64,000 bases of DNA, from assembly GCF_963665995.1 (NCBI RefSeq), contig NZ_OY762512.1:1488001-1552000 (forward strand). Reading direction: 5' to 3'. Below the pieces are notes generated by a model. The model was given only the letters and a program-made list of their open reading frames with translations, was not told where the DNA came from and did no database searches. The stretch is from Pleurocapsa sp. FMAR1. GTDB taxonomy: Bacteria > Cyanobacteriota > Cyanobacteriia > Cyanobacteriales > Xenococcaceae. Below, one piece after another: positions 36,809 through 53,464 of this stretch; the stretch's first letter is position 1; every line of letters starts with the position of its first letter. The position numbers and the translations under genes are program-made.

Positions 36809-39800
36809 TTAAAAAGGAAGTCTAACCACATCAGCAAAAAGGCTTTGTAATCGTTGCAATTGTGCGCCAAACTGATAAAGTAAATCTCCTTTTCCTAATA
36901 GATAAGCTCCTTCTGTTTGGTTACCACCTAAAATAATTTTAGAATCAGCTTCGCTAGCTGTACTCAAGGCAATTCTTCCTGGTAAATTAGAACGAATAAT
37001 AGGAGTCACTACCTTAGCTTCGGGTCGCTGGGTAGCAACAATCAAATGGATGCCCGCCGCTCTTGCCATTGCACCTAAGCGTTTGATACTTTGCTCAAGC
37101 GCGTTACGAGTTTCTTTTTCTGTCATAAAGTCTGCATATTCATCAAAAATACAAACAATACGGGGTAAATAATTTTTAGTTGATGTTTGTTTTTGATTGT
37201 AGGCATCAAGGTGGGGACATCCTGCTGTTTCAAATAGTTGGTAACGCTTGTCCATTTCTCTAACTAATTCTTCCATTAAAGCGATCGCTTGCTCACTATC
37301 TTTAACTACAGGAGAAAACAACCAGGGTTTGGATTCAAATTCAGGAAAAGTAACTCGTTTGGGATCGACTAGGGCAATTTTGAGTTGTTGAGGAGAATAA
37401 CGGTAAATAAGACTGAGAAGGAGCGATCGCAAAAATTCACTTTTACCGCTTCCTGTAGTTCCTCCTACTAAAAAATGACAGGTATTAGGATCGGATAAAT
37501 CGGCTTCAATTAATTTTCCTTCTAAGTCTATTCCGAGCGCAATTTTGACAGCAGTATTTATAGAGTCGTGTTCTTGTTTGATATAATCGTAGAAATTGAC
37601 TATTTGCCTATCTTTACGAGGCACATCGACACTGACATAGCCAGCTTGCGTAGCAATCAATGGAGGTGCGGAGATTCCCAAGTGTACTTTTAAATCTTCT
37701 GAACGATTAGCAATAGAGACTACTTTAACTCCTAAGTCTGGTTTTAACTTGATGCGGATAAATGCTGAACCTACTGCTGCACCTTGATAACTAACATTAA
37801 GACTATAAGATTGCAGAATCTTTACTAGCCGTTGTCCAATTTTATCTGCATCAATAGAAGGTTGAGGTTGAGGTTGAGGATTAGGTTCTGTTAGCAGTTC
37901 GATCTTTATGGGTGGAATGGGTTTGTGTTTCTCGTCAGCCACTTTAAAAAAACTTTGACATTTTTTTTGCTGAGGACAAATTTCACAAAGATTGGAATTA
38001 CTTGTTGGCGGTGGTGCATCTGGTTGTGATGGTTGCCATTGCAGCCATTTTTGCATCTGTTGTAATTTAAAGGGAATTACTTGATGCACATTGGTTTCGA
38101 GTTCTGACCAAGCATAAAAATATTCCTTGAACTCTGGTAGAACACAATAGACAGCGGAGTCCACAGGTACTTTTTTAGTTTTATGAATCATATAGCTATA
38201 TAGAGCAACCTGTGCCAACTGTGCGGAAGGATCGACAGGAGCATAAGTTTTCAATTCAACGACACGAAGGCTATTTTGGCTGTAATCGTAAATTAAACAA
38301 TCTAATTTTCCAGCTATCGGCTGTTGTGTACCATTGGGTAAATTAAAATCATGTTGCAATTTGTATTCTGAAGAGATGAAAGTGCGATCAAACAGCTTAT
38401 CTGCGTCGCAATAGGCGCGATTGTTAATTAATAATTCAGCCCACTTTTTAATTAAATTTCTAATTCCTTGCCAAACTCGATCTAGTGCAGGAGCTAAATT
38501 AGGTTTAGTTTGAATTGTTGGCTGTAGATAGTGAGGGAAAAAAACCAGACTGTAGAAGATATTTTGCATCTGAGAAGCGATCGCCTCTACTTTCAATTGT
38601 TTGGCTGATGGCTCAAATAAAGCTTTGAATTGAGATTCTTGTTTAATTGTGGTGATAAAATCATTAGCTAGCTTATGAAAAGTATTACCAATACCAAAAG
38701 TGCCAGATTTTGGCACAAATAAAGTTTTGCCACCAAAATGCTTACTCACATAAAATAATCGCGGACACTCAAAAGCAACCCGAACATCGGTAACGCTAAA
38801 AGAATCTGGTTGTAGTAAAAGCATATTTGGCTTAAATTCTAATAAACGATGATGAACCTTGGCTAAATAAACTGTGTCCATCTTGGCATACTTGATTTGT
38901 TCTCTACTAAGAGGTCTTTTTCCCCAGTCGCTTCCCTGTTCATTGGCGATTTCTGCTTGAGGAAAGTTACACAGTTCGACAGCAAGGGTTTTTAGTTTGA
39001 GATTGCTAGTTCTCAAAACTTTTTTAGAGATTTGTTGCGCGATTTTATAGGTACAAGTAATATTTTTGGCTTGTTCTTTTCCGCCAAGATATCTTAAATC
39101 GAAGCTAGCATTGTGAAAAACTTTTTCAATGCGAACATTGGTCATAATTTGATTGATAAATTCTGACGCTATTTCTGGCTTGTCTAAAACATCAAGGATA
39201 TAAGTTGATTCTCCTGTCAGATCTTGGGGATCGGCTAATACTTGAATTAAAGATAATCGGGGATGTCTAGTCTGCCAGTCAGCTATTTCCGTATCCAGCC
39301 ATAAAGTTTCAAAAGCTTTAATGTGGGTAATGAAGGCGCGAATTTCTTCGGCTGTCTCTAGATAGCATGAATTTGCCGAGTCCGAAATAGATTCATCATC
39401 TTCTTCATAAACATAAAATTCCATTTCTGCTACTTCGGGGTCAAAATCATCAGGAAATTCTGTGTCTTCGTCGTAGATAGCACCTTCAAACTTTGTACCT
39501 TCAAGATTTGCACCTCGTAAATCGGCTTCAATTAGACAAGAATCCCTGAGATCGGCTTCAGCTAAGTTAGCTCTAGTTAGGTTTGCACCTCGCAAGTCCG
39601 CAGCAACTAAGCAAGCATGACTGAGATTAATACCCTGTAAATCGGCTTCAAAGAGGTTAGCCTTACTCAAATCTTCTTTACGAAAATTCCTTTCCCCTGC
39701 TTCATACTGCTTCAGCAAGTGGATAATTTTAAATCCTCTTCTGCTAGGATGCTTTAGACTCACGGGGTCATTATCTCCAATAATCTCCCAATTGAGAACA

Positions 39801-41431
39801 GAGCAAGCTTGAATATCTTCTAGCCACAAACGCAGAATTTCTTTGGCTTCTGAGTCGGTTTGAGGCAAAGGAAACCACGATCTGTTGCCATTACATGACC
39901 ACTCTAACTGGAAGCCACCTGCGGGATAAAAACAAGTATCCCACATCCCTTGAATGTAGTCTTTAGTTTCACTATCTTGGAGGATAAAATACCCTGTAAA
40001 ACGACTAACCCCTTCTTGGATAATATATTGAGCTTCTTGATACAGTTCATCAATTACTCGTTCGAGATCGGCAATACTAGGATCGCTAATAGTTTCTTCA
40101 TCGGCAGACTTGGGACGATATATTAAGCTTAATTCTCTGTCTGTATTCTCTTCATCCTCAGTATATATCTCTGTTGCTAATGCAACAGCCACTTCAATTG
40201 CTATCTGGGCGTTTTCCCGATCGCCCTGTCTCTCAAATAGTATGGCTGCTTGTTCGTAATCCTTATAAGCAGCTAAAGTTTCCCCTAATTCTCGATATGC
40301 CTCTCCTCGCATAAAATAAATAAAAGGATGAGCCGAGTTTTCTTCTTCAATCGCCTCATTTAAGTAAGCGATCGCCTGTTGATAGTCTTTTTGTGCGATC
40401 GCTTCTGTTGCGTTTTTAAGATGTTTTTGTGCTTGGGTGAAAGCTGCTGATTCCCTATCTTTGCCCAAAAAGTTACCTAATTTTTTTCCTATTCCTCCTA
40501 ACCAGGAATTATCTCGCTCTTCTAATAAATTTGATTGATTTTTGGCTGATTCTGCTTCAATTAAATTCAACAGTACTGCCTTAATGGTATTTGCAGATAT
40601 ATCGTCTCGATCTTGAAGAAGTTTTATTCCTTGTTGCCAATCAGCGATCGCCTTATCGCTTTGTTTTATTTCCGAATATGCTTTACCTCGATTTTGGTAG
40701 ATGGCAATTATTTCGGGATCTAGTTGTATTGCTTCGGTATAATCGGCGATCGCGCTGTCGAGTTTGCCTATTTTAATGTAAGTATTGCCTCGATTTGCAT
40801 AAGCCTCTAGATACTCAGGTATGAGGCGAATTGCTTCAGTGTAATCTTTGATTGCTTGTTGTTGATCGTCTAGTTTGGCATGAGTATATCCTCGCTCGAA
40901 AAAATACTCGCCATCGCTAGAATCAAGCTTGATCGCTAGATTAAAATCAGCTAGTGCGCTTTGATAGTTTTCTAACTGCTGCTTTGCCAAACCTCGTAGA
41001 AAATACAGGTATGGTAACTCAGAATCTAAATCGAGTGCCTTGGTATAGTTAGCGATCGCTTCTGAATAATTATTTAAAATCCAATGATAGTAACCTCTGC
41101 CAAAATAAATTTCAACCGTTTGGCAACCCAAACTAATAGCGATATTGCAATCAGAAATTGCTCCTTGATAGTTGTTTAACTTGGCTTTAACTTGGCTTCT
41201 TAAATCATAGTATTCCGCATCTTCAGAATCAAGCTCGATCGCTCGATCTAAATTTGTCAGTGCTTCGGGGTATAGTTCCAGTTGTCTCAAAGCTTCTCCC
41301 CGCAGATAGTAAGCAGCTGCACAATCTGGTTTTAATTCAATAACAGAAGTCAGAGATTCAAAAGCATTGTGGTATTCTTCTTGTTCTAAATAAGATACGC
41401 TTTTTTGCATCAGCAGAACAAACTGGATCAT
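36809..41431 (-). CDS. TPR-pentapeptide-DEDDy exonuclease-Cas4/RecB-like nuclease-FtsK/HerA motor fusion
   Basis: 1540 aa. Residues 1-270 and 330-420 are TPRs. Residues 585-655 are pentapeptide repeats (A(D/N)LxxANL). Residues 690-865 form an RNase D-like 3'-5' exonuclease with an intact DEDDy set: Asp713/Glu715 (LDTEIAD), Asp778 (HNASFDLRYL), Tyr848/Asp852 (KYAKMDTVYL). Residues 870-1165 form a Cas4/RecB-type nuclease with Asp1044 (GKLDCLI), Glu1059-x-Lys1061 (VVELKT), Gln1074-xxx-Tyr1078, and cysteines 889, 1149, 1152, 1158 positioned for a 4Fe-4S cluster. Residues 1190-1540 are an FtsK/HerA-like ATPase: Walker A GGTTGSGKS (1323-1331), Walker B CIFDEYAD (Asp1430/Glu1431), ATQRP (1467-1471). 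Its start overlaps the stop of the AAA gene by four bases (ATGA). Role inferred: motor-driven DNA processing in repair or defence. Confidence 0.9.
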   Translation of the reverse strand: MIQFVLLMQKSVSYLEQEEYHNAFESLTSVIELKPDCAAAYYLRGEALRQLELYPEALTNLDRAIELDSEDAEYYDLRSQVKAKLNNYQGAISDCNIAISLGCQTVEIYFGRGYYHWILNNYSEAIANYTKALDLDSELPYLYFLRGLAKQQLENYQSALADFNLAIKLDSSDGEYFFERGYTHAKLDDQQQAIKDYTEAIRLIPEYLEAYANRGNTYIKIGKLDSAIADYTEAIQLDPEIIAIYQNRGKAYSEIKQSDKAIADWQQGIKLLQDRDDISANTIKAVLLNLIEAESAKNQSNLLEERDNSWLGGIGKKLGNFLGKDRESAAFTQAQKHLKNATEAIAQKDYQQAIAYLNEAIEEENSAHPFIYFMRGEAYRELGETLAAYKDYEQAAILFERQGDRENAQIAIEVAVALATEIYTEDEENTDRELSLIYRPKSADEETISDPSIADLERVIDELYQEAQYIIQEGVSRFTGYFILQDSETKDYIQGMWDTCFYPAGGFQLEWSCNGNRSWFPLPQTDSEAKEILRLWLEDIQACSVLNWEIIGDNDPVSLKHPSRRGFKIIHLLKQYEAGERNFRKEDLSKANLFEADLQGINLSHACLVAADLRGANLTRANLAEADLRDSCLIEADLRGANLEGTKFEGAIYDEDTEFPDDFDPEVAEMEFYVYEEDDESISDSANSCYLETAEEIRAFITHIKAFETLWLDTEIADWQTRHPRLSLIQVLADPQDLTGESTYILDVLDKPEIASEFINQIMTNVRIEKVFHNASFDLRYLGGKEQAKNITCTYKIAQQISKKVLRTSNLKLKTLAVELCNFPQAEIANEQGSDWGKRPLSREQIKYAKMDTVYLAKVHHRLLEFKPNMLLLQPDSFSVTDVRVAFECPRLFYVSKHFGGKTLFVPKSGTFGIGNTFHKLANDFITTIKQESQFKALFEPSAKQLKVEAIASQMQNIFYSLVFFPHYLQPTIQTKPNLAPALDRVWQGIRNLIKKWAELLINNRAYCDADKLFDRTFISSEYKLQHDFNLPNGTQQPIAGKLDCLIYDYSQNSLRVVELKTYAPVDPSAQLAQVALYSYMIHKTKKVPVDSAVYCVLPEFKEYFYAWSELETNVHQVIPFKLQQMQKWLQWQPSQPDAPPPTSNSNLCEICPQQKKCQSFFKVADEKHKPIPPIKIELLTEPNPQPQPQPSIDADKIGQRLVKILQSYSLNVSYQGAAVGSAFIRIKLKPDLGVKVVSIANRSEDLKVHLGISAPPLIATQAGYVSVDVPRKDRQIVNFYDYIKQEHDSINTAVKIALGIDLEGKLIEADLSDPNTCHFLVGGTTGSGKSEFLRSLLLSLIYRYSPQQLKIALVDPKRVTFPEFESKPWLFSPVVKDSEQAIALMEELVREMDKRYQLFETAGCPHLDAYNQKQTSTKNYLPRIVCIFDEYADFMTEKETRNALEQSIKRLGAMARAAGIHLIVATQRPEAKVVTPIIRSNLPGRIALSTASEADSKIILGGNQTEGAYLLGKGDLLYQFGAQLQRLQSLFADVVRLPF

Positions 41432-43449
41432 TTTTTACCTCCTGCTACTGCTTGAGGAATTAAGCAAATCAATCGCTCTTGTGGTTTGGCGTTAGGATTA
41501 ACAAAGGATATTTTCTGTTCTTGAGATAACTCTTGAATCAGACGTTCTATTTTTACTTCTTCTATCTCAGTAAACTGACTTTTGGCTTGTTGAATTAATG
41601 TTTGTTGTCCTAGTAAAAGATGATGTTTTACTAGATTAAGCAGAAATTTCTTTACTTCTAGCTCTTTTCCTGTTTCTGGATCTAGTTTGATAATAGGAAT
41701 GGTGGGGACAATTTCTAAATCTTGTAATAAACTACATTGATGTAAAACTTTGGTTTCGCGAACTAATTTTTCTAAATCGGTTAAGCTTAAAGGCTTAAAA
41801 TTTAAAACCAAATCCCCAGAAACAGCATCGTTTTTTAACTTTTGATAGGTTTTTAAATAATGAACAGATTCTAAACTGAATTTGATGTGAGAGTTTGAGC
41901 TATTATTAAATATCTTTTGATAGATTTTATATCCTTGATTATTCTTTTTGCCCAATGATTCGGCTCTAATCATAATTAATGTACTATTTTTATTTGAGCT
42001 AATTGCTTTCTCGCAGGCTTTCATAGCATAAGAAAAGCTTTTTAAATTAGAATCTTCATTCCACAATACACCGACCTGTTTAGATTGATTTAAGGGCTGA
42101 TAACTAAAAGAATAACTAGAATATTTACCGTTTAAAAATCGGGGTTTTATTTGTTGAATTCCCAAAACACTTATGGCTGAAATCAACATTTCAATTAGTT
42201 CTTGAGAAGATGATTGACGAATGTGAGAAATTTTATCTTTAGTTTTATTTAATTCATCTTGCCAAAGAAGCTTAAAAGCTGCCAAAGGATCTGATGTTGG
42301 TTGTGTTTTATCACCTATTCCTGGTATTTCTCTAGAACTTGTAGATTTATACTTTTCATACAGTATTCCGCCAAAACTGAGAGAGTACCGTAAATTGGCT
42401 TTTCCTCCAGGATATTTGACTTCTAATTGTTGCTTATCTAAAGGTGCAATAGATGAATTTGGTTTGGGCTTTGCTTGGAAGTGGATCGGATAAAGGCGGT
42501 TTTCCCAAAGAGCTTTTACTTGTTCTAAATTAATTTGTTTTAAAATAATTTCTCGATCAATTCTAGCCAGATCGGACTGAAAAATTGTGTTTTGACAAAT
42601 TCTCCATTGGTCTTGAGTAATACTAATAATTACTAAAAAGTTTTTTAAATTATTGTTGTGAAAAGCAGTATTAACATTAAAAATTGAACTAATATCTAAA
42701 GAACCATCTAAAGATTTAGGAGAAAGTTCTACCTGATCGAAACATAGAGCGATGGGTTTATTATCAGCAGAAATTCGCCCAAAATTGGCAATAACACCTT
42801 TAGCAGCCTCCTCTGTATCAATCATGCTGCTGACTCCCAAAAGCTCTAGTTCATCTTCGCTAATACTATAACCCCGTAACCAGTCACAAGCAGAGAAATA
42901 TAAATCTGGGTTAGCCAACTCATATAAAACAGTAAAAAAGTCTTTAGGCTGATAAATACCCGTTGGATAAATGCTTCTTAGTTCGTGAATAAAGTGATTT
43001 TTCGCACCGAGAATCCTTTTTTTGATCCCACCATCACTATAAGCAGATAAACCTTTTAACCACAGAAGCAGTTGAGACTCTTTTTCCCCTTCAGGAATGT
43101 GCATCAAACCATCAACAGTATGGCTCAGAGTGTGTCGCCAAATATAATCTTGAGCTAGACAAGGCTCGATATAAGCAAAAAAAGCTCTATTATTTAGGTT
43201 TTTTTTGAGACGACTCAATAAATAGCTTTTACCACAACCAGAATCCCCCGTAAGCAAAATACTACGAGTACGACGATCTCGAATAACGTGTTGAAGAGTA
43301 TCTCGGATTTGAATTATCGCTTCTTGATGAATTGATTCAACCGTTGCGCTTGAGGGTTGTTGGTTTTCTGTCCAAAAGTTACCCGTTCTAAATGTTACCG
43401 AATCAAAGGGATTAACTTCCCGTTGAATAATTTCGTTCAAAGTTGCCAC
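41428..43449 (-). CDS. AAA/STAND-like P-loop ATPase with C-terminal winged helix
   Basis: 673 aa. Walker A is 'LLTGDSGCGKSYLLSRL' (Gly68-Ser75). The Walker B strand 'KPIALCFDQVELSP' carries Asp238 followed by Gln, not Glu, at the usual catalytic place. The opening 'NPFDSVTFRTGNFWTENQQ' resembles ATPases of phage-defence and DNA-processing loci (BrxC/DndF-like architecture), though I cannot establish homology by eye. Residues 590-660 ('LNLVKHHLLLGQQTLIQQAKSQFTEIEEVKIERLIQELSQ') look like a winged helix. It sits between the winged-helix gene (47 bp upstream) and the giant fusion gene (4-bp overlap), so translation is coupled. Confidence 0.8.
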   Translation of the reverse strand: MATLNEIIQREVNPFDSVTFRTGNFWTENQQPSSATVESIHQEAIIQIRDTLQHVIRDRRTRSILLTGDSGCGKSYLLSRLKKNLNNRAFFAYIEPCLAQDYIWRHTLSHTVDGLMHIPEGEKESQLLLWLKGLSAYSDGGIKKRILGAKNHFIHELRSIYPTGIYQPKDFFTVLYELANPDLYFSACDWLRGYSISEDELELLGVSSMIDTEEAAKGVIANFGRISADNKPIALCFDQVELSPKSLDGSLDISSIFNVNTAFHNNNLKNFLVIISITQDQWRICQNTIFQSDLARIDREIILKQINLEQVKALWENRLYPIHFQAKPKPNSSIAPLDKQQLEVKYPGGKANLRYSLSFGGILYEKYKSTSSREIPGIGDKTQPTSDPLAAFKLLWQDELNKTKDKISHIRQSSSQELIEMLISAISVLGIQQIKPRFLNGKYSSYSFSYQPLNQSKQVGVLWNEDSNLKSFSYAMKACEKAISSNKNSTLIMIRAESLGKKNNQGYKIYQKIFNNSSNSHIKFSLESVHYLKTYQKLKNDAVSGDLVLNFKPLSLTDLEKLVRETKVLHQCSLLQDLEIVPTIPIIKLDPETGKELEVKKFLLNLVKHHLLLGQQTLIQQAKSQFTEIEEVKIERLIQELSQEQKISFVNPNAKPQERLICLIPQAVAGGKK

Positions 43450-43496
43450 ACTAATACCTCTATTATCTGTATTTAAAATTGTTTTAAGGTATCGCC

Positions 43497-44375
43497 CTAA
43501 TTAACCATGAGGAAAAATAACGAACCACCGACATCTTGAGGAATACCTGCTTCGACTTGTTCTTTGGTGTAGTGAACGGCTTCTACTAGTGAACTAAATT
43601 CCAATTTATCTCCTCTTTGCAAACGATATAGCGCATCGTCTAATTCTTTTCTAGACAGAGGTGGTTGTAGTTTATTGCGGAGATGAAAAATTGGTAGGTA
43701 ATTATCTGTACCTAATTCGCGATCTAGTCCAATAATTGTTTGTAAAATCTCTTCATCAGTAGGCTTTTTACCATTGCTGGTATCTTGTCCGTTTGTCTTT
43801 ATTTGAGGCTTTTTACCATTACCGTTAACCTCTTTGTTTACTGTAATTTGGGATTGAGATGAACCCGAACAGAGATTTTTACGTAAAAAACGAACATAAT
43901 TATCTAGTAAATCAAGACTTAAAACTGAACCTGTACCTTTAGCATTGTATTCTTCTAACAGAGTTTTCTTTCCTCTTTCTGTTAGCCTAACTTGTTCTAT
44001 TTTGGTGGCGGTGGCAGTAATTAAACCCTGTTTGACTAACTTAGTTATTAGTTCTTCTCTTTTCTCGGCAGGAGTAACTTTAGTTTTACCAGGAGTAATT
44101 ACTTCAGTAGAGCAAGCTTTGAGGATTTTCAGTTCATCGGTAGTGACTGGTAAATTATTTGCATCTAGATTAAGTAATGCTTTACCAGCAGAGTTAATCT
44201 TTATTTTGGTAACTGTTTGGCTACAGGCTACCAATTCGCGATCGCACAAGTTCCGACAGATACTTTGTGTCTCTGAAATCTTAGTTTTACTATTCGGCTT
44301 GAGTTCGCTTATCTTTCCACAATAATTATTCTTACCAATAAGCTTAAAAAGAAACTTTAATTCTTTGACTTCCAT
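43497..44375 (-). CDS. Multi-winged-helix protein, first gene of the FtsK-nuclease operon
   Basis: 292 aa, family not recognised. Three winged-helix-like segments can be seen: about 8-75 ('LCDRELVACSQTVTKIKINSAGKALL'), 80-145 ('KREELITKLVKQGLITATATKIEQVRLTERGKKTLLEEY') and 205-292 ('LPIFHLRNKLQPPLSRKELDDALYRLQRGDKLEFSSL'). A low-complexity Asn/Gly/Lys linker (about 175-205) joins the last two. It ends 'GIPQDVGGSLFFLMVN'. As promoter-proximal gene it could be the DNA-recognition or regulatory subunit for the two ATPases that follow; that is inferred from gene order only. Confidence 0.65.
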   Translation of the reverse strand: MEVKELKFLFKLIGKNNYCGKISELKPNSKTKISETQSICRNLCDRELVACSQTVTKIKINSAGKALLNLDANNLPVTTDELKILKACSTEVITPGKTKVTPAEKREELITKLVKQGLITATATKIEQVRLTERGKKTLLEEYNAKGTGSVLSLDLLDNYVRFLRKNLCSGSSQSQITVNKEVNGNGKKPQIKTNGQDTSNGKKPTDEEILQTIIGLDRELGTDNYLPIFHLRNKLQPPLSRKELDDALYRLQRGDKLEFSSLVEAVHYTKEQVEAGIPQDVGGSLFFLMVN

Positions 44376-46557: not shown

Positions 46558-48330
46558 TTACAGTAAGGTAGGAATATCGTTGACCCATAGCCAGTCCAAG
46601 TTATTGAACCATTTTTGAGTCTTCTCTCCTGACTTTTTCGCTTGATGGAGCTTTATAACCAATTGGTCACTGTACGTTTTGGCATCATGGCAATGTTTGT
46701 GTAGTAGCTGGAGATTATCTCTACTATTGCTACCACCCGCCTTTTTGGGGATGATATGGTCAGTTTCTATCAAATCTCCATCAAGGAAGTTAAGATTACA
46801 CCAATTACATAAACCCATTTGTTTTTTCAACAATTTAGCTGTTGAAGGCTTCAATTCAGGATGCGAACCCTTTCTTTTTGCCCAGTAAATGGTGTCTCCG
46901 TCATAGGGGGTTTTATTTCCTCTAACTTTGACATGGCGTACAATTGCTGTTTTAGTATGTCTTTCTAAGGTAATAAAATCATCCTTATATTCCTTACCAA
47001 AAACCCAATTATCTTCTCCTATAGTTACCCAGTATTTATCTCCCACCCAGTATTTACTTTTGTTGGGATGTCTTCTATCCGCCCATCTACGTAGCCTTTT
47101 GTGAGTTAAATGACCAACTTTTGAGTAAGTTTCTTGACTACACACTGTTCTGTAATAGTTACACCATCCTCTAATAATCGGATTCAACTCACTGATGATT
47201 TTTTCTTGGGGTGCAGCTTTTAACCTTCCGATTTTAAGGGAAAGTTTTTCATAGTGCCTCCTAACACTATCGGATGATGGTCTTATAATTGTTTTGAACC
47301 CCAATAATTTACCCTGTCCGTTCTTCCCTGACTGGTATTTGCCAACTTTATATTGGCGTATATTGAATCCCAGAAAATCGAATCCTGGTTGATGTTTATC
47401 CAGTTCAAGTTGAGTGTGAACAACTTTGGTTTTGCTAAATTTTAATTCAAGGTCGTAGTGGGATAACCATTCACTTATGACATTTTGACAAACCTTGAGA
47501 GTATCCAAATTTTTATAAAAGATTACGAAATCGTCAGCATATCTGATTAAAGATGCACCCTTAATTTGTTTAATCCTATTTTCCATTCCGTGTAGGGCTA
47601 TATTGCTTAAAAGCGGGGAAATTACGCCTCCCTGTGGCGTTCCCTGACGGTTTGGAGTCTTTTGATTCTTCTCAAAGTCACAAATGTCGGCTCTCAACCA
47701 GGCTCGGATTTGTCTCCTAATGGTAGGAAATGTATTGAGCTTGGCTAGGAGGTGATGGTGGTTAATTCGGTCAAAACATTTCGCTATATCTGCATCCAAC
47801 ACAAATTTTGATTTATATCTAATCTGGTTGAAGATGGCTTCCACAGCGTCATGTGCGCTTCTTCCAGGTCGAAAGCCATAAGAATTATTTTCAAATCTTG
47901 ACTCCCATTCTGGTTCTAGAGCAGCTTTAACTAAAGCTTGTGTTGCTCTGTCGCGCATCACAGGAATACCTAGAGGTCGCTTTTCGTTTCTTCCAGGCTT
48001 GGGAATCCAAACTCTTCTAATGGGTTGGGATTTATCCTCTAGTTTTAAACCGTTTGCGAGTTGAAATCGCTGCTTTGGGGTCAAGGATTTCACCTGATCC
48101 ACTCCCGCAGTTTTCTTTCCTGAATTATCCTGTGTGACCAGTCTTACGGATAAAAGTCGGTTGTAATAGGATTTGATGAGGGTTTTTTGTAGCCTTCTTC
48201 CTTGTTTGACATCACCATTGATGTAGGCTCGGTAGATTCTCTTTTGCAACTTCCAAACAGCCTTCTGGATTTTACGCCAATCAAGCTGTTTCCATTCCAC
48301 AGTATTCTGATTTGAATCTGTTTTAGACAT
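46558..48330 (-). CDS. ltrA: Group II intron reverse transcriptase/maturase with HNH endonuclease
   Basis: 590 aa, all domains intact. RT: 'IPKPGRNEKRPLGIPVMRDRATQALVKAALEPEWE', 'YGFRPGRSAHDAVEAIF', 'TPQGGVISPLLSNIALHGME', catalytic 'LIRYADDFVIF'. Maturase domain X: 'ELNPIIRGWCNYYRTVCSQETY'. C-terminal HNH: 'GLCNWCNLNFLDGDLIETDHIIPKKAGGSNSRDNLQLLHKHCH' with two CxxC-type metal pairs. It binds the intron RNA for splicing and, with the HNH nicking the target's second strand, supports retrohoming. Nothing suggests inactivation. Confidence 0.96.
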   Translation of the reverse strand: MSKTDSNQNTVEWKQLDWRKIQKAVWKLQKRIYRAYINGDVKQGRRLQKTLIKSYYNRLLSVRLVTQDNSGKKTAGVDQVKSLTPKQRFQLANGLKLEDKSQPIRRVWIPKPGRNEKRPLGIPVMRDRATQALVKAALEPEWESRFENNSYGFRPGRSAHDAVEAIFNQIRYKSKFVLDADIAKCFDRINHHHLLAKLNTFPTIRRQIRAWLRADICDFEKNQKTPNRQGTPQGGVISPLLSNIALHGMENRIKQIKGASLIRYADDFVIFYKNLDTLKVCQNVISEWLSHYDLELKFSKTKVVHTQLELDKHQPGFDFLGFNIRQYKVGKYQSGKNGQGKLLGFKTIIRPSSDSVRRHYEKLSLKIGRLKAAPQEKIISELNPIIRGWCNYYRTVCSQETYSKVGHLTHKRLRRWADRRHPNKSKYWVGDKYWVTIGEDNWVFGKEYKDDFITLERHTKTAIVRHVKVRGNKTPYDGDTIYWAKRKGSHPELKPSTAKLLKKQMGLCNWCNLNFLDGDLIETDHIIPKKAGGSNSRDNLQLLHKHCHDAKTYSDQLVIKLHQAKKSGEKTQKWFNNLDWLWVNDIPTLL

Positions 48331-49126: not shown

Positions 49127-52100
49127 TCAATTTTCAACTCTAGTTTTTCTAGCTGTAGATATAATATTGTCAATTCGCTCTGCAATTATTTGAGCTAAGT
49201 CTGCTTGAGACAAAATACTAGCGTGATCGCCTGGAATTTCATAGGTGTCAACACCTCCTAAAGCCATACCTTTCCAGCCACCATCAGCATCAAAATAAGC
49301 CTTTGCATCTCTAATTTTGGCACGAAATAAAGTTAATTTACCTCCATAAGTTTGAGGAGTGTATTTCCTAAGTATTTGATAATTTAGGTTGTTAATTTTA
49401 AACGCAAGCTTTTGTTGAGGAGATAAAAACAATTCAACAAATTTAAAGTATCTTTGTTGAGTCGAGCGGAGAACTTTTGCTTTTAGTCGATATTTGATTT
49501 TTGATTTAACATAATCTAATGCTTGAAATGTTGATAGCTGGGTAAAATTGCTAAAATGAATGTATGTTTTCTGCAAGGCATTTTTATCAGTAATTTTGGG
49601 TCCTAAACAATCAAATAAAGCTAAAAGTGCAATACTTTCTCCTTGCTGCTCAAGTTGACAAGCTATTTCGTAAGCTACAAAACCGCCAAAGGAATGTCCG
49701 CCTAAATAATATGGCCCTTGTGGCTGAACCAATCTAATTTCTTGAAGATAGTCGGCAGCCATTTCTTCTAAGCAAATTAATAATGGTTCTCTGCCGTCCC
49801 AGCCTCGTGATTGTAAACCATAAAATGGCTGCTCGTTTCCTAAAGCTTTGGCTAAAGAATAATAAGTTAGCACATTACCGCCAACAGGGTGGATACAGAA
49901 CAAAGGAGGCTTCGTACCATGAGGTTGAATATTAACCAGTGAAGAACGGCGTGATGCTGACCAGCCTCGATCGAGAATAATGCTGGCTAGTTGAGAGATG
50001 GTTGGTGCTTCAAATAAAGTTGCTAAAGGTAAATTAGCCCCAAAAGATTTATGGATTCGTTCAAATAAACGCAACGCCAACAGGGAATTACCGCCAAGGG
50101 AGAAAAAATCATCATCTCTGGCAATTGGTTGAACATTTAAAACCTCTGACCAAATCTGGCTTAATTTAAATTCTAAAGGGCTTTGTAGTGGCAAAGACTT
50201 GCTCATTATCGATGCTCTTTTGGTCGGAGTAGTTAGTAACGCCTTAAGGTCTACCTTGCCGTTGGGAGTTAAAGGAAAAGCATCTGTAAAGATAAAATCA
50301 GCAGGAATTGCATACTCAGGCAATTGAGTTGCCAGAAAGCTCCGCAATTGTTGGCTAGTCAGGGCCGAGTTGGGTTTTAAAATCGAGTAAGCGACCAAAC
50401 TTTTTTGCTCTGCATTAGGATCGTTAACGCTAACTAACGTTTCTTGAATTTCTGGACATTGCAATAGGGCGGTTTCAATTTCTCCTAGTTCAATTCTGAT
50501 ACCACGAATTTTGACCTGGTTGTCAATACGACCTAAAAATTCTATATTACCGTCTTCAAGATAGCGTCCTAAATCTCCTGTTTTGTAAAGACGGGCGGTA
50601 GGGTCGCTACTAAAAGGATCGACAATAAATCTGGCGGTGGTTAATTCTGGACGATGAAGATAGCCTCTAGCTACACCAACTCCGCCTATGTAAAGTTCCC
50701 CCGTAACACCGATGGGTGCTAACTGTTGTTGAGAGTCTAAAATATAGAAGGATTGATTATGGAGAGGACGACCATAGGGAATAGCTTTGTCAGCAGTCCA
50801 TTTTGAGGCGATAGGATAACAAATAGACCAAATTGAGGCTTCAGTTGCTCCTCCTAAACTAACAATCTGTAGCTGCGGGTTTAAGTTTTGCAGTTGAATT
50901 ACCAAATTAGGATTAAGGCGATCGCCACTGAGCATAACTAAACGTAGTGATGATGGTAATTGTCGCTCAAAGCCAACGATATAATTAACTAGCAACTCTA
51001 AAAGAGCGGGGGCTGAGTTCCAGATAGTGACTTGTTCTTGGGCTATCAATTCCAGCCATTGTTCGGGATTAGGGCGAGTGGTACTAGGGGGCAAAATCGC
51101 TGTTCCCCCAGAACCCAAACTGCCGAAGATATCATAAACCGATAGATCGAAGCTCAAGGAAGAAACAGCCAATACACGGTCTTGAGGCTGCACCGCAAAA
51201 CGCTGCTCGATATCCCATAAGGTGTTGACCGCACTATGGTGTTCTATGGCTACCCCTTTCGGATTTCCCGTTGAACCAGAAGTATAGATTACATAAGCTA
51301 GGTTATGGCTGTTTACTTGGCTTAGGGGATTTGTATTCTGTAAATTAGGTAGTTCCCCATCTCGATCGAGACAGATAATTTGAGTAGCAGTTTTGGGTAA
51401 TCGCTCAAGCTGCTTTGTTTGAGTTAGCAGTATATTTAAACTAGCATCTTCAAGGATATAGCTAAGTCTAGCGGGAGGATAATTGGGGTCGATCGGTAAG
51501 TATGCTCCTCCTGCTTTGAGAATAGCAAATAAGGCGATCGCCATTTCTAAAGAGCGTTCTAAACAAATACCAACTAAACTTTCTGGCTGCACTCCTAGCT
51601 GCTGTAGATGATTCGCCAGCTTGTTGGCTTGCCGATTTAATTCACCTCTAGTCAAAGACTGACCTTGATAGACAACGGCGATCGCCTCACTATCTTCTAT
51701 TACTCTAGCTTCAAATAATTGATGCAGACATAAATCCGCTCGATAGTTCGTGGTAGTTTGATTCCAAGCCAACAGCCGTTTTTTTTCTGAGTCAGAGATT
51801 AAAGGCAGGTGGGCGATGGGGTAGTTGGGATTTTGGCTGACAATTCCTGCTGTTAGAGTTTGCCATTGCTCTAACATAGTGGCAATTAATTCCTCAGAGA
51901 AGACATTAACGTTATACAACCAATAGTATTCTGCTGATTCGATACTTAACGTTAAATGACCAGAAGGATGCTCTACGTTTTGCCCCACACTTACCGTAAA
52001 ATCATCTAGTTTGTTGGCTAATTGCGGAGATCTAGCGATTAAATCCGTGGCATAGCTTTGATATTTTTGATTGAGTTTTCGCCTTTTAGTAACTGTGGCG

Positions 52101-53464
52101 ATCGCTGTGGCTAAATTATCTTCAGAGGAAATTCTTAAATTTGCAGGTACACAAGTAGCAAACCAAGGAGCGATCGCGCCATTTTCAGTAAATCCTTCAA
52201 ATCCCAAAGTGATTTGTTGGTTGACGCTTAAACGAGCGATGTAAATGGCGAAGATAGCCATGACCACATCTGAAGCGTTTGTCATCCCATAGGTCTGCTG
52301 AATGAAATCAATAACTATATTGCTTAAAGGTAATTTAACCCGTCGATAACTATTGGCAGCAACAAAGGTTGCTAATTTTTTGATTCTAGGCAGGGTTAGA
52401 GGTTCCCACTTGATTAACTGCTTGCGCCAATAGCCTTCTGCTGGTGATAGTTTCGTTGCTAAGGTGGTTATTTTAGAGCTTAATTCTGAATCAATCTGAG
52501 GCAACTGTTGTTTATACTCAAGCTGATAATCTGTAACCAATTTTTCAATTGAGCTTGCTTTCCCCTGCTTAGTGGTAACATCCTGTAGCGCAATGTCTTG
52601 ACTAGCCGTGGTCACAATTAATCGATCGCTTTCAATTCTGACAATTGTGCCTGGTGTGTATTGAGATTTAGCTGTAAGTTTGGCTACCCGATTAATAATT
52701 ACGTAGTCTAAATTATCACTGGAGTTTAATATTAGTTTGGCTGTGGTTAAAGAATTTGTATAATTCCCAAAGCTCAATCCCCGCACTAGATTATCAATCA
52801 CTGCTGCTGGCTGATTAAAATCAATAATGCCTAATGCTTGAGGTTTTTGATGACGAGGGTAGTAGCTTCGCTGCTGTAAATCTTGGAAAGTTGAATTTAC
52901 TCGATCGCTAGCAAGTTCTTTGATTAATTCGCTAAAAGCGGCGATCGCTGCCTGATAGCATTTAGTATTTAGGGTTAAAGTAGTTTCTGAAGCTTCTAAG
53001 TCTATTTTGACCTGCTTGAGTATATTACCTGTATCAATTTCTGCTGTAATCTCGTGCCAGGTAATACCGTGTCGCACTTCGCCATTGATAATTGCCCAAG
53101 CTGTTGCGTTTACTCCAGCATAGCTTGGTAGTAAAGCGTCGTGGTAATTAATTGCTTGACTAACTTGAGCAATAGTTTCAGGAAGCAAAATAGCGTGATT
53201 AACAATGCTAAAAAGATAATCACACTGATCTGCTTTTAACAGTTTAAGTAACTGTTGCTGATCTTTTAAGTTAATAATTTTGTTAGTATCTGCCCACCGT
53301 TTAACGATTAAATCTGGAGATACAATACCTTTGATTCGATACTTTTGTTGCAGCAGCAGTTCGGCACACTTTATTAATAGACTTCCTTCTCCGATTAAAT
53401 AACAATCAAATGAATAGTTTTTGGGGAGAACTTCTTGATTATTTTTAGACTGTGAAGTATCCAA
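49127..53464 (-). CDS. Single-module NRPS: formyltransferase - partial condensation - adenylation (Cys-like) - carrier - thioesterase
   Basis: 1445 aa. Residues 20-310 form a methionyl-tRNA-formyltransferase-like domain with Asn106/His108 and the HDALLPSYAG loop and Asp144 (EIDTG). Residues 340-560 resemble only the C-lobe of a condensation domain, and no HHxxxDG motif is present. Adenylation: 'YVIYTSGSTGNPKGVAIEH', 'FDLSVYDIFGSLGSGG', 'SLGGATEASIWSICYPI', 'YKTGDLGRYLEDGNIEFLGR'. My reading of the specificity pocket is D-L-Y-N-M-S-L-I-W-K, close to published cysteine codes. Carrier serine: 'FFSLGGNSLLALRLF'. Thioesterase: 'LGGHSFGGFVAYEIA'. A product carrying an N-formyl or otherwise N-acylated cysteine-like residue is inferred. 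No tailoring genes adjoin it. Confidence 0.87.
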   Translation of the reverse strand: MDTSQSKNNQEVLPKNYSFDCYLIGEGSLLIKCAELLLQQKYRIKGIVSPDLIVKRWADTNKIINLKDQQQLLKLLKADQCDYLFSIVNHAILLPETIAQVSQAINYHDALLPSYAGVNATAWAIINGEVRHGITWHEITAEIDTGNILKQVKIDLEASETTLTLNTKCYQAAIAAFSELIKELASDRVNSTFQDLQQRSYYPRHQKPQALGIIDFNQPAAVIDNLVRGLSFGNYTNSLTTAKLILNSSDNLDYVIINRVAKLTAKSQYTPGTIVRIESDRLIVTTASQDIALQDVTTKQGKASSIEKLVTDYQLEYKQQLPQIDSELSSKITTLATKLSPAEGYWRKQLIKWEPLTLPRIKKLATFVAANSYRRVKLPLSNIVIDFIQQTYGMTNASDVVMAIFAIYIARLSVNQQITLGFEGFTENGAIAPWFATCVPANLRISSEDNLATAIATVTKRRKLNQKYQSYATDLIARSPQLANKLDDFTVSVGQNVEHPSGHLTLSIESAEYYWLYNVNVFSEELIATMLEQWQTLTAGIVSQNPNYPIAHLPLISDSEKKRLLAWNQTTTNYRADLCLHQLFEARVIEDSEAIAVVYQGQSLTRGELNRQANKLANHLQQLGVQPESLVGICLERSLEMAIALFAILKAGGAYLPIDPNYPPARLSYILEDASLNILLTQTKQLERLPKTATQIICLDRDGELPNLQNTNPLSQVNSHNLAYVIYTSGSTGNPKGVAIEHHSAVNTLWDIEQRFAVQPQDRVLAVSSLSFDLSVYDIFGSLGSGGTAILPPSTTRPNPEQWLELIAQEQVTIWNSAPALLELLVNYIVGFERQLPSSLRLVMLSGDRLNPNLVIQLQNLNPQLQIVSLGGATEASIWSICYPIASKWTADKAIPYGRPLHNQSFYILDSQQQLAPIGVTGELYIGGVGVARGYLHRPELTTARFIVDPFSSDPTARLYKTGDLGRYLEDGNIEFLGRIDNQVKIRGIRIELGEIETALLQCPEIQETLVSVNDPNAEQKSLVAYSILKPNSALTSQQLRSFLATQLPEYAIPADFIFTDAFPLTPNGKVDLKALLTTPTKRASIMSKSLPLQSPLEFKLSQIWSEVLNVQPIARDDDFFSLGGNSLLALRLFERIHKSFGANLPLATLFEAPTISQLASIILDRGWSASRRSSLVNIQPHGTKPPLFCIHPVGGNVLTYYSLAKALGNEQPFYGLQSRGWDGREPLLICLEEMAADYLQEIRLVQPQGPYYLGGHSFGGFVAYEIACQLEQQGESIALLALFDCLGPKITDKNALQKTYIHFSNFTQLSTFQALDYVKSKIKYRLKAKVLRSTQQRYFKFVELFLSPQQKLAFKINNLNYQILRKYTPQTYGGKLTLFRAKIRDAKAYFDADGGWKGMALGGVDTYEIPGDHASILSQADLAQIIAERIDNIISTARKTRVEN

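Follow-up and report, generated by a model that had tools for sequence, protein, structure and literature searches.

A three-gene operon of Pleurocapsa sp. FMAR1 that joins an AAA+ ATPase to a nuclease-FtsK fusion protein, a candidate cyanobacterial system for intercepting invader DNA

We have described here a three-gene operon in a 64,000-nucleotide stretch of the Pleurocapsa sp. FMAR1 genome (the window), in which a winged-helix-like protein (WH) and a diverged AAA+ ATPase (AAA) accompany a single long chain (NUC) carrying two nuclease domains and an FtsK motor. The operon is real, conserved and modular. Our best interpretation is a counter-invader system that would intercept and degrade DNA, a cyanobacterial FtsK-alpha form of the Orc/CDC6 'HerA/FtsK capture' systems put forward, as a prediction only, by Rakesh, Aravind and Krishnan (2024; PMC10853773, section 22), and we regard the case for this interpretation as evenly balanced. 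What is new here is the cyanobacterial spread and modularity of the operon, the Gln or Asn at the Walker B catalytic position of AAA, a relative (G032) in which a dead fused nuclease is accompanied by an intact solo copy, and the exchange of the operon for another cassette at the same site. Among open-licence papers we found no experimental test of the operon and no cyanobacterial description of it, and the main text of PMC10853773 has no word starting with 'cyanobact'. The operon is a concrete, testable example of an anti-invader class that we found only as predictions.

Organization of the operon and the NUC chain

The three genes all lie on the minus strand, with WH (43497..44375; 292 aa, ATG start) 47 bp from AAA (41428..43449; 673 aa, GTG start) and AAA overlapping NUC (36809..41431; 1540 aa, ATG start) at a gap of -4 bp, and the open reading frames (ORFs) confirm this arrangement as it was given in an earlier note on this DNA. 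From its N-terminus NUC comprises a TPR region (40172..41431; Pfam TPR), pentapeptide repeats (39485..39667; residues 589-649 by Pfam), a DEDDy 3'-5' exonuclease (38840..39358; residues 692-864; DNA_pol_A_exo1, E 4.4e-26), a PD-(D/E)XK nuclease (37955..38803; residues 877-1159; PDDEXK_1 with E 4.5e-12 and a Cas4 profile with E 1.1e-5), an FtsK alpha domain (37619..37903; residues 1177-1271; FtsK_alpha PF17854, E 6.4e-8, above cut-off) and an FtsK motor (37022..37555; residues 1293-1470; FtsK_SpoIIIE PF01580, E 3.6e-41). When profiles were compared with the Protein Data Bank (PDB), the relatives of the exonuclease were NrnC, RNase D, Rrp6 and diDNase, the closest solved relative of the motor was the DNA translocase FtsK (2iuu, E 2.5e-65), and the nuclease-family profile gave no meaningful match to solved structures. 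The motor, called FtsK/HerA in the earlier note, is of FtsK type and has an alpha domain; the HerA model (DUF87) scores E 0.0062, under its cut-off. PF01580 and PF17854 are above cut-off in the window NUC and in three other loci (L046, L040 and L073).

Residue conservation was counted over the 39 proteins of relatives that match both the nuclease and the motor, and together with the Pfam matches it upholds the claim that the DEDDy exonuclease, the four-cysteine PD-(D/E)XK domain and the Walker A and B motifs are intact. The exonuclease residues D713/E715/D778 are present in 31/39, Y848 in 32 and D852 in 33; the rest are gaps in which the domain is missing or the ORF truncated, and no protein that has the column departs from the expected residue. 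D1044 of the nuclease is kept in 37 of the 39 (one Asn, one gap), E1059 in 36 (three Asp) and K1061 in 38 (one Glu, in L040). Four cysteines of the same domain may bind iron-sulphur, and of these C889 is found in 37 proteins, with two gaps, and C1149, C1152 and C1158 in all 39. In the motor, Walker A K1330 and Walker B D1430/E1431 are found in 38, with one gap.

The G032 protein (L040:5925-13873) departs from this pattern in that its fused PD-(D/E)XK domain is dead by its residues (D1044 to N and K1061 to E), with a protein kinase domain (PF00069, E 1.5e-34) inserted between exonuclease and nuclease. On the same strand, 154 bp upstream of WH, there is a solo PD-(D/E)XK gene whose residues at the three positions are D, D and K. 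The combination of a dead fused nuclease with an intact solo copy alongside it suggests that the nuclease is maintained by selection, as appears from the residues of this one case. L040 was excluded from alignments A4 and A5.

The AAA and WH proteins

AAA is a diverged AAA+/STAND-like ATPase with a Rad17-type P-loop; in the window protein Rad17 is above its Pfam cut-off and AAA_16 matches too. AAA_16 and AAA_22 are present in 50/50 AAA family members, NACHT in 43 and KAP in 39 (E 0.01), and the Orc1/Cdc6 model scores E 0.0013, far under its cut-off. The Walker A lysine is intact in 69/69 family members. The Walker B motif (D238-Q239; 42733..42738, minus strand) has Asp at position 238 in the same 69, and position 239, where the catalytic glutamate would be placed, is either Gln (46) or Asn (23). 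In AAA+ enzymes, loss of the Walker B glutamate slows or blocks ATP hydrolysis, and AAA may be held for long in an ATP-bound state because this residue is Gln or Asn.

WH has no Pfam match at the curated cut-off. Its family profile, built from 42 relatives, gives weak but consistent matches in the PDB to the 34L Z-alpha domain (E 0.0029) and to MarR-type proteins (E 0.06), and the winged-helix-like segments, also with weak E-values, are MarR-like at about residues 62-158 and Z-alpha-like at about residues 191-247. Pfam HTH_45 is found in 15 of the 42 members at E 0.05. AlphaFold2 models of WH and AAA, made from two-sequence alignments, have a mean pLDDT of 36.

Co-inheritance and modularity

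Among the genomes of 150 relatives searched with AAA, 64 match at E 1e-5 and 59 do so strongly (best E <= 6e-111); the 59 exclude five genomes with weak matches (G008, G046, G047, G128 and G132). The nuclease domain, sought with profile A4 at E 1e-20, is found in 47, and 46 of these also hold AAA; the earlier note had said that its proposal would fall if the genes rarely co-occurred, and AAA is present in nearly every nuclease genome. One genome holds the nuclease only (G139), 13 hold AAA only and 90 neither (Fisher p 1.7e-25, kinship ignored). The order WH-AAA-NUC is found for 33 of 68 AAA genes of at least 600 aa in the fetched loci, with median gaps of 55 and 19 bp as measured with mechanically chosen starts; this count drops the duplicates L033 (= L032) and L103 (part of the L073 plasmid), keeps near-duplicates such as L053/L056, and leaves the window uncounted. 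Pairwise distances among the three proteins are correlated (r 0.69, 0.67 and 0.77), and 0 of 2000 label shuffles gave values as high; with the species tree left in, this correlation is a sign of co-inheritance and of nothing beyond it.

The chain is variable in its composition. NUC is 826-930 aa long in 28 of the 33 triplets and, where aligned, starts at the exonuclease. The TPR and pentapeptide parts are found fused to NUC in the fetched loci only in the window, L072, L168 and L031/L169, all of the window's family; called scaffolds in the earlier note, they are a lineage-specific add-on outside the core. The exonuclease is optional, being wholly or nearly missing from five loci (L046, L052, L073, L099 and L100) that keep the nuclease and motor. 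A shorter chain of about 490 aa, made up of exonuclease and nuclease, is seen in G015 (L069) and G139 (L171), where no motor was found next to it; the nuclease ORF of G142 is 493 aa long, and PF01580 has no match there. There are also WH-AAA-AAA or AAA-AAA tandems that lack a nuclease and motor of their own (L041, L044, L046, L047, L051, L053, L063, L065 and L067), and the first and second AAA copies of these tandems form separate groups in a FastTree tree.

Relationship to known systems

The HerA/FtsK capture systems, as section 22 of PMC10853773 presents them, consist of an Orc/CDC6 ATPase, restriction endonucleases (REases), an FtsK-alpha motor, sometimes with a fused 3'-5' exonuclease, and a fast-evolving protein with 2-4 winged helix-turn-helix (wHTH) domains. 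The class is marked there by an inactive REase between the AAA core and a C-terminal wHTH, and is proposed to intercept invader DNA during segregation, transfer or packaging; PMC12839542 adds a BREX-related relative. The operon is like the systems of that section in having an AAA+ ATPase, a REase-fold nuclease with an intact active site, an FtsK-alpha motor and a separate protein with winged-helix-like segments, and like a subset of them in having its 3'-5' exonuclease fused to the motor. Three of six features drawn from that account are found in the operon, namely the REase-fold nuclease (by its residues), the FtsK-alpha motor and the fused 3'-5' exonuclease. For the other three, which are the Orc/CDC6 type of the ATPase, the inactive REase insert and the 2-4 wHTH domains, the signal is under cut-off, missing and weak, respectively. 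Compared with the same account, the operon differs in that its nuclease is a four-cysteine Cas4-like PD-(D/E)XK, and in that its family has tandem AAA-AAA genes, motor-less WH-AAA units and a TPR-pentapeptide region on the nuclease-motor chain; pentapeptide fusions are on the ATPase in the capture systems but on NUC in the window. The statement in the earlier note that no known system has such a layout did not survive this comparison, since the capture neighbourhoods of section 22 list nearly the same parts.

Other systems share fewer features. SspFGH (PMC8092258) also has three genes, among them one for a P-loop ATPase and one for a chain with an FtsK domain at its end, although it works with the SspABCD modification. 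NUC aligns with SspH at an hhalign probability of 99.9 percent over 283 columns, in the FtsK domain only, but AAA aligns with SspF at 3.3 percent and over the P-loop only (profile of 3 cyanobacterial sequences) and WH with SspG at 0.3 percent (profile of 2 cyanobacterial sequences). SspF is found in 3/150 relatives and is absent from the window genome. We also note that a cyanobacterial SspH (L087:9984-15431, 1815 aa) has, by eye, a PD-(D/E)XK-like motif before its FtsK domain that is unreported by Pfam. DndFGH/DptFGH, in the account of PMC10853773, resemble the operon in having a REase and a HerA/FtsK motor in one chain, a multi-wHTH partner and a P-loop partner, but the eight-domain core of DndH, of about 1700 residues, is missing from NUC by Pfam. 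The dptF model TIGR03238 matched 0/150 genomes, and its controls were silent too.

In HerA-NurA and HerA-effector defence pairs a ring motor is coupled to a nuclease. The operon differs from HerA-NurA in that its motor is FtsK-type with DUF87 under cut-off, and its nuclease matches PDDEXK_1, with no NurA among the families matched. With cellular FtsK it shares the alpha and motor domains, but where cellular FtsK has its usual N-terminal part, NUC carries nuclease domains. No single system of PADLOC 2023 covers the window proteins over their length; there are partial matches to SspH, mad8 and HerA on the motor, to Cas4 on the nuclease and to DEDDh and BrxHI on the exonuclease, and weak P-loop matches on AAA.

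Distribution, plasmid copies and decay

The operon is patchily spread. In a sample of 291 genomes spanning the class, 45 carry the AAA gene, and many of these belong to orders other than the window's; in a phylum sample it is found in 25/194 genomes, every one in the window's order. A strong AAA match is present in 2/13 genomes of the genus. Among 72,556 plasmid records single-sequence tblastn gave one match, on pPSE7367.01, a conjugative plasmid from Pseudanabaena sp. PCC 7367, and an exonuclease/nuclease query likewise matches this Pseudanabaena plasmid only. The plasmid NUC has nuclease and motor and no exonuclease, and is named 'DNA translocase FtsK' in its public record; a cyanobacterial record of this name may be a nuclease machine and not a cell-division protein. 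Over the motor, the FtsKs of the cyanobacterial plasmids H3-H15 show 37-38 percent identity (best 40 of 397 records), and membership of Anabaena FtsK All7666 (named in PMC7766704) in the operon family is unsupported, as judged from these plasmid FtsKs, All7666 itself not being compared.

AAA is present in multiple or tandem copies, with up to 8 matches in one genome, of which some are fragments. Decay seems to have affected several copies (L034, L037, L042, L031/L169 and L168), for which sequencing or assembly error is possible. Copies of the operon with an internal deletion are seen at L031:5492-8420 and L168:5067-8383, where an error in a metagenome-assembled genome is possible, and L031 is probably the same contig as L169 and as G022 contig 5.

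A conserved site and its alternative occupants

Ten WH-AAA-NUC loci, one of them (L095) outside the window's order, share a single conserved position next to ileS and a common ParA. The ParA adjoining NUC was considered as a fourth component and ruled out, as it matches at E 1e-60 in 130/150 genomes. In family f18 the operon is replaced at this site: to either side of the exchanged stretch the DNA of G043 (L050) is 83-94 percent identical to that of G108/G124 (L155/L156). Between the breakpoints lie, in G043, 7.8 kb comprising WH-AAA-NUC and one more gene and, in G108, 2.4 kb comprising two genes. The breakpoints are clean, and no remnant of the operon was found at the swapped site. The replacing cassette (L156:10827-12934 and L155:6835-8870; also in L153, L154, L157-L159, L162, L163 and L165) encodes a ParA that carries at its N-terminus a restriction-like domain (HSDR_N_2, E 0.00039, under the curated cut-off), in which E-A-K is kept in 5/5 aligned domains, followed by a ParB_N protein (E 4.1e-7). 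It is also found beside the same ParA in families other than f18, and among 15 operon-less ParA regions, which were hand-picked and not random, it is present in 10 and absent from 5. Through the swap site one could look for more nuclease cassettes in cyanobacteria independently of the defence genes already known.

A restriction-ParA query matches 57/150 genomes, and 8 of these share NUC against 17.9 expected (p 3e-4). Thirty of the 57 match the ParA part only; among the 27 that reach the restriction-like part, 3 share NUC against 8.5 expected (p 0.012), kinship being ignored in both comparisons. The cassette adjoins WH-AAA-AAA in L041 and L067 and a motor-less exonuclease-nuclease gene in L171 (G139), and the window genome holds both NUC and a restriction-ParA match, far apart, so the two can coexist. 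Looking for an empty site in the genus by way of the cation-efflux neighbour of the operon, we found that the 1.5-kb flanks of that neighbour's relatives hold none of the window's other genes.

Proposed function and alternatives

In the scheme that we infer for the biochemical steps, their order and their target, WH and AAA would bind DNA, with AAA as a long-lived ATP-bound switch or loader, and would load the NUC motor onto invading DNA. The FtsK ring would then pump double-stranded DNA past the PD-(D/E)XK site, where it would be cut, and the DEDDy domain would trim 3' ends. In support of a counter-invader system we count the co-occurrence and patchiness of the genes, their shared order and correlated distances, the kept catalytic residues, the G032 case, the swap, the plasmid copy, the decayed copies and the prediction in section 22 of PMC10853773.

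There are several observations that weigh against it. At E 1e-10, 126 flank proteins gave matches to 13 PADLOC families and 126 control proteins to 189, a tally of families and not of proteins, in which one gene may match many models and type I specificity models fill the control list. The flank matches include single ones to the mad3, mad8, AriA, AbiLi and LeoA models. The flank proteins were 148 drawn from 457, of which 22 were removed by hand (14 lying at the ends of loci, 5 ParA neighbours, 2 exonuclease ORFs standing alone and 1 other). The control proteins, 126 out of 230, came from 20 regions at fixed positions in AAA-carrying genomes. By this crude measure nothing points to a defence island around the operon, which weakens the simplest argument for defence; the suggestion in the earlier note of a DNA-end processing machine for defence or repair stands as regards a unit of motor, nucleases and ATPase, and finds no defence neighbourhood. 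The immediate neighbours in the window (glgB, a cation-efflux gene and an amine-oxidase-type flavoprotein) are all ordinary. No DNA-modification gene was seen by eye among the recurrent flank clusters, which leaves self/non-self recognition unexplained. The fixed spot of the ten loci is less typical of a mobile defence gene, the family is near-absent from plasmids and has no match by single-sequence tblastn in 50,697 phage records, and 13 of the 150 genomes hold AAA without the nuclease. In the AAA protein no sign was seen of the inactive REase that marks the capture class: residues 386-590 matched no PDB chain at E 5 and, by profile comparison, neither of the PD-(D/E)XK profiles compared.

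The ordinary flanks and the fixed chromosomal place would suit a host machine for DNA repair or end resection, in which the motor and two nucleases process broken or stalled chromosomal DNA with AAA and WH as the loader, and the set of exonuclease, PD-(D/E)XK nuclease and motor fits end processing, in parallel with HerA-NurA. We regard chromosome maintenance as the main rival and give this a small but real chance. The nuclease is missing from 103/150 relatives, however, AAA is strong in few genomes of the genus, copies appear to decay, and in f18 an unrelated cassette stands in place of the operon. A module for segregation or plasmid maintenance, acting at DNA partition and interchangeable with the ParA/ParB-like cassette, is distinctly unlikely in our view, although it would account for the same-site swap and for the avoidance between restriction-ParA and NUC, and although the sole FtsK/SpoIIIE PF01580 match at E 1e-5 in the window genome (5.4 Mb, a single contig) is that of NUC (G000:C1:1525022-1525555). 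At E 1e-10 a PF01580 match is present in 16 of the relatives that lack the nuclease and absent from the other 87 of these 103 (18 best candidates scored per genome), and such a function is therefore dispensable; the swapped cassette also has a nuclease-like domain, which fits plasmid restriction too.

It is improbable that the operon is being spread as the cargo or remnant of a mobile element. There is one copy on a conjugative plasmid, and AAA occurs in tandem and in multiple copies, but integrases and transposases are not recurrent in the main flank clusters (only a few loci have a gene of transposon type, identified by eye, nearby), and beyond its rarity on plasmids and the lack of phage matches no viral contig matched either of two peptide patterns. 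A phosphorothioate-dependent restriction module of the SspFGH or DndFGH kind is barely credible: the FtsK domain does match SspH, but it is disfavoured by the rarity of SspF and by the lack of homology of AAA to SspF beyond the P-loop and of WH to SspG.

Alongside the counter-invader system set out above, we put forward a more specific proposal that is speculative and probably wrong, though worth stating. In it the operon and the restriction-like-ParA/ParB-like cassette would be two unrelated nuclease machines, able to take each other's place at the conserved ileS-ParA site, that keep watch over DNA during segregation and destroy plasmids or phage genomes at partition, with AAA as a hydrolysis-deficient ATP switch and NUC as the only FtsK-type motor in cells like that of the window.

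Other features of the window

The names ileS, glgB and those of the neighbouring glycosyltransferases were assigned by eye from the sequence. Near the operon, at positions 46558-48330, is a reverse transcriptase of group II intron type with maturase and HNH domains. Positions 49127-53464 encode a 1445-aa protein resembling non-ribosomal peptide synthetases, with formyltransferase, AMP-binding, carrier and thioesterase domains.

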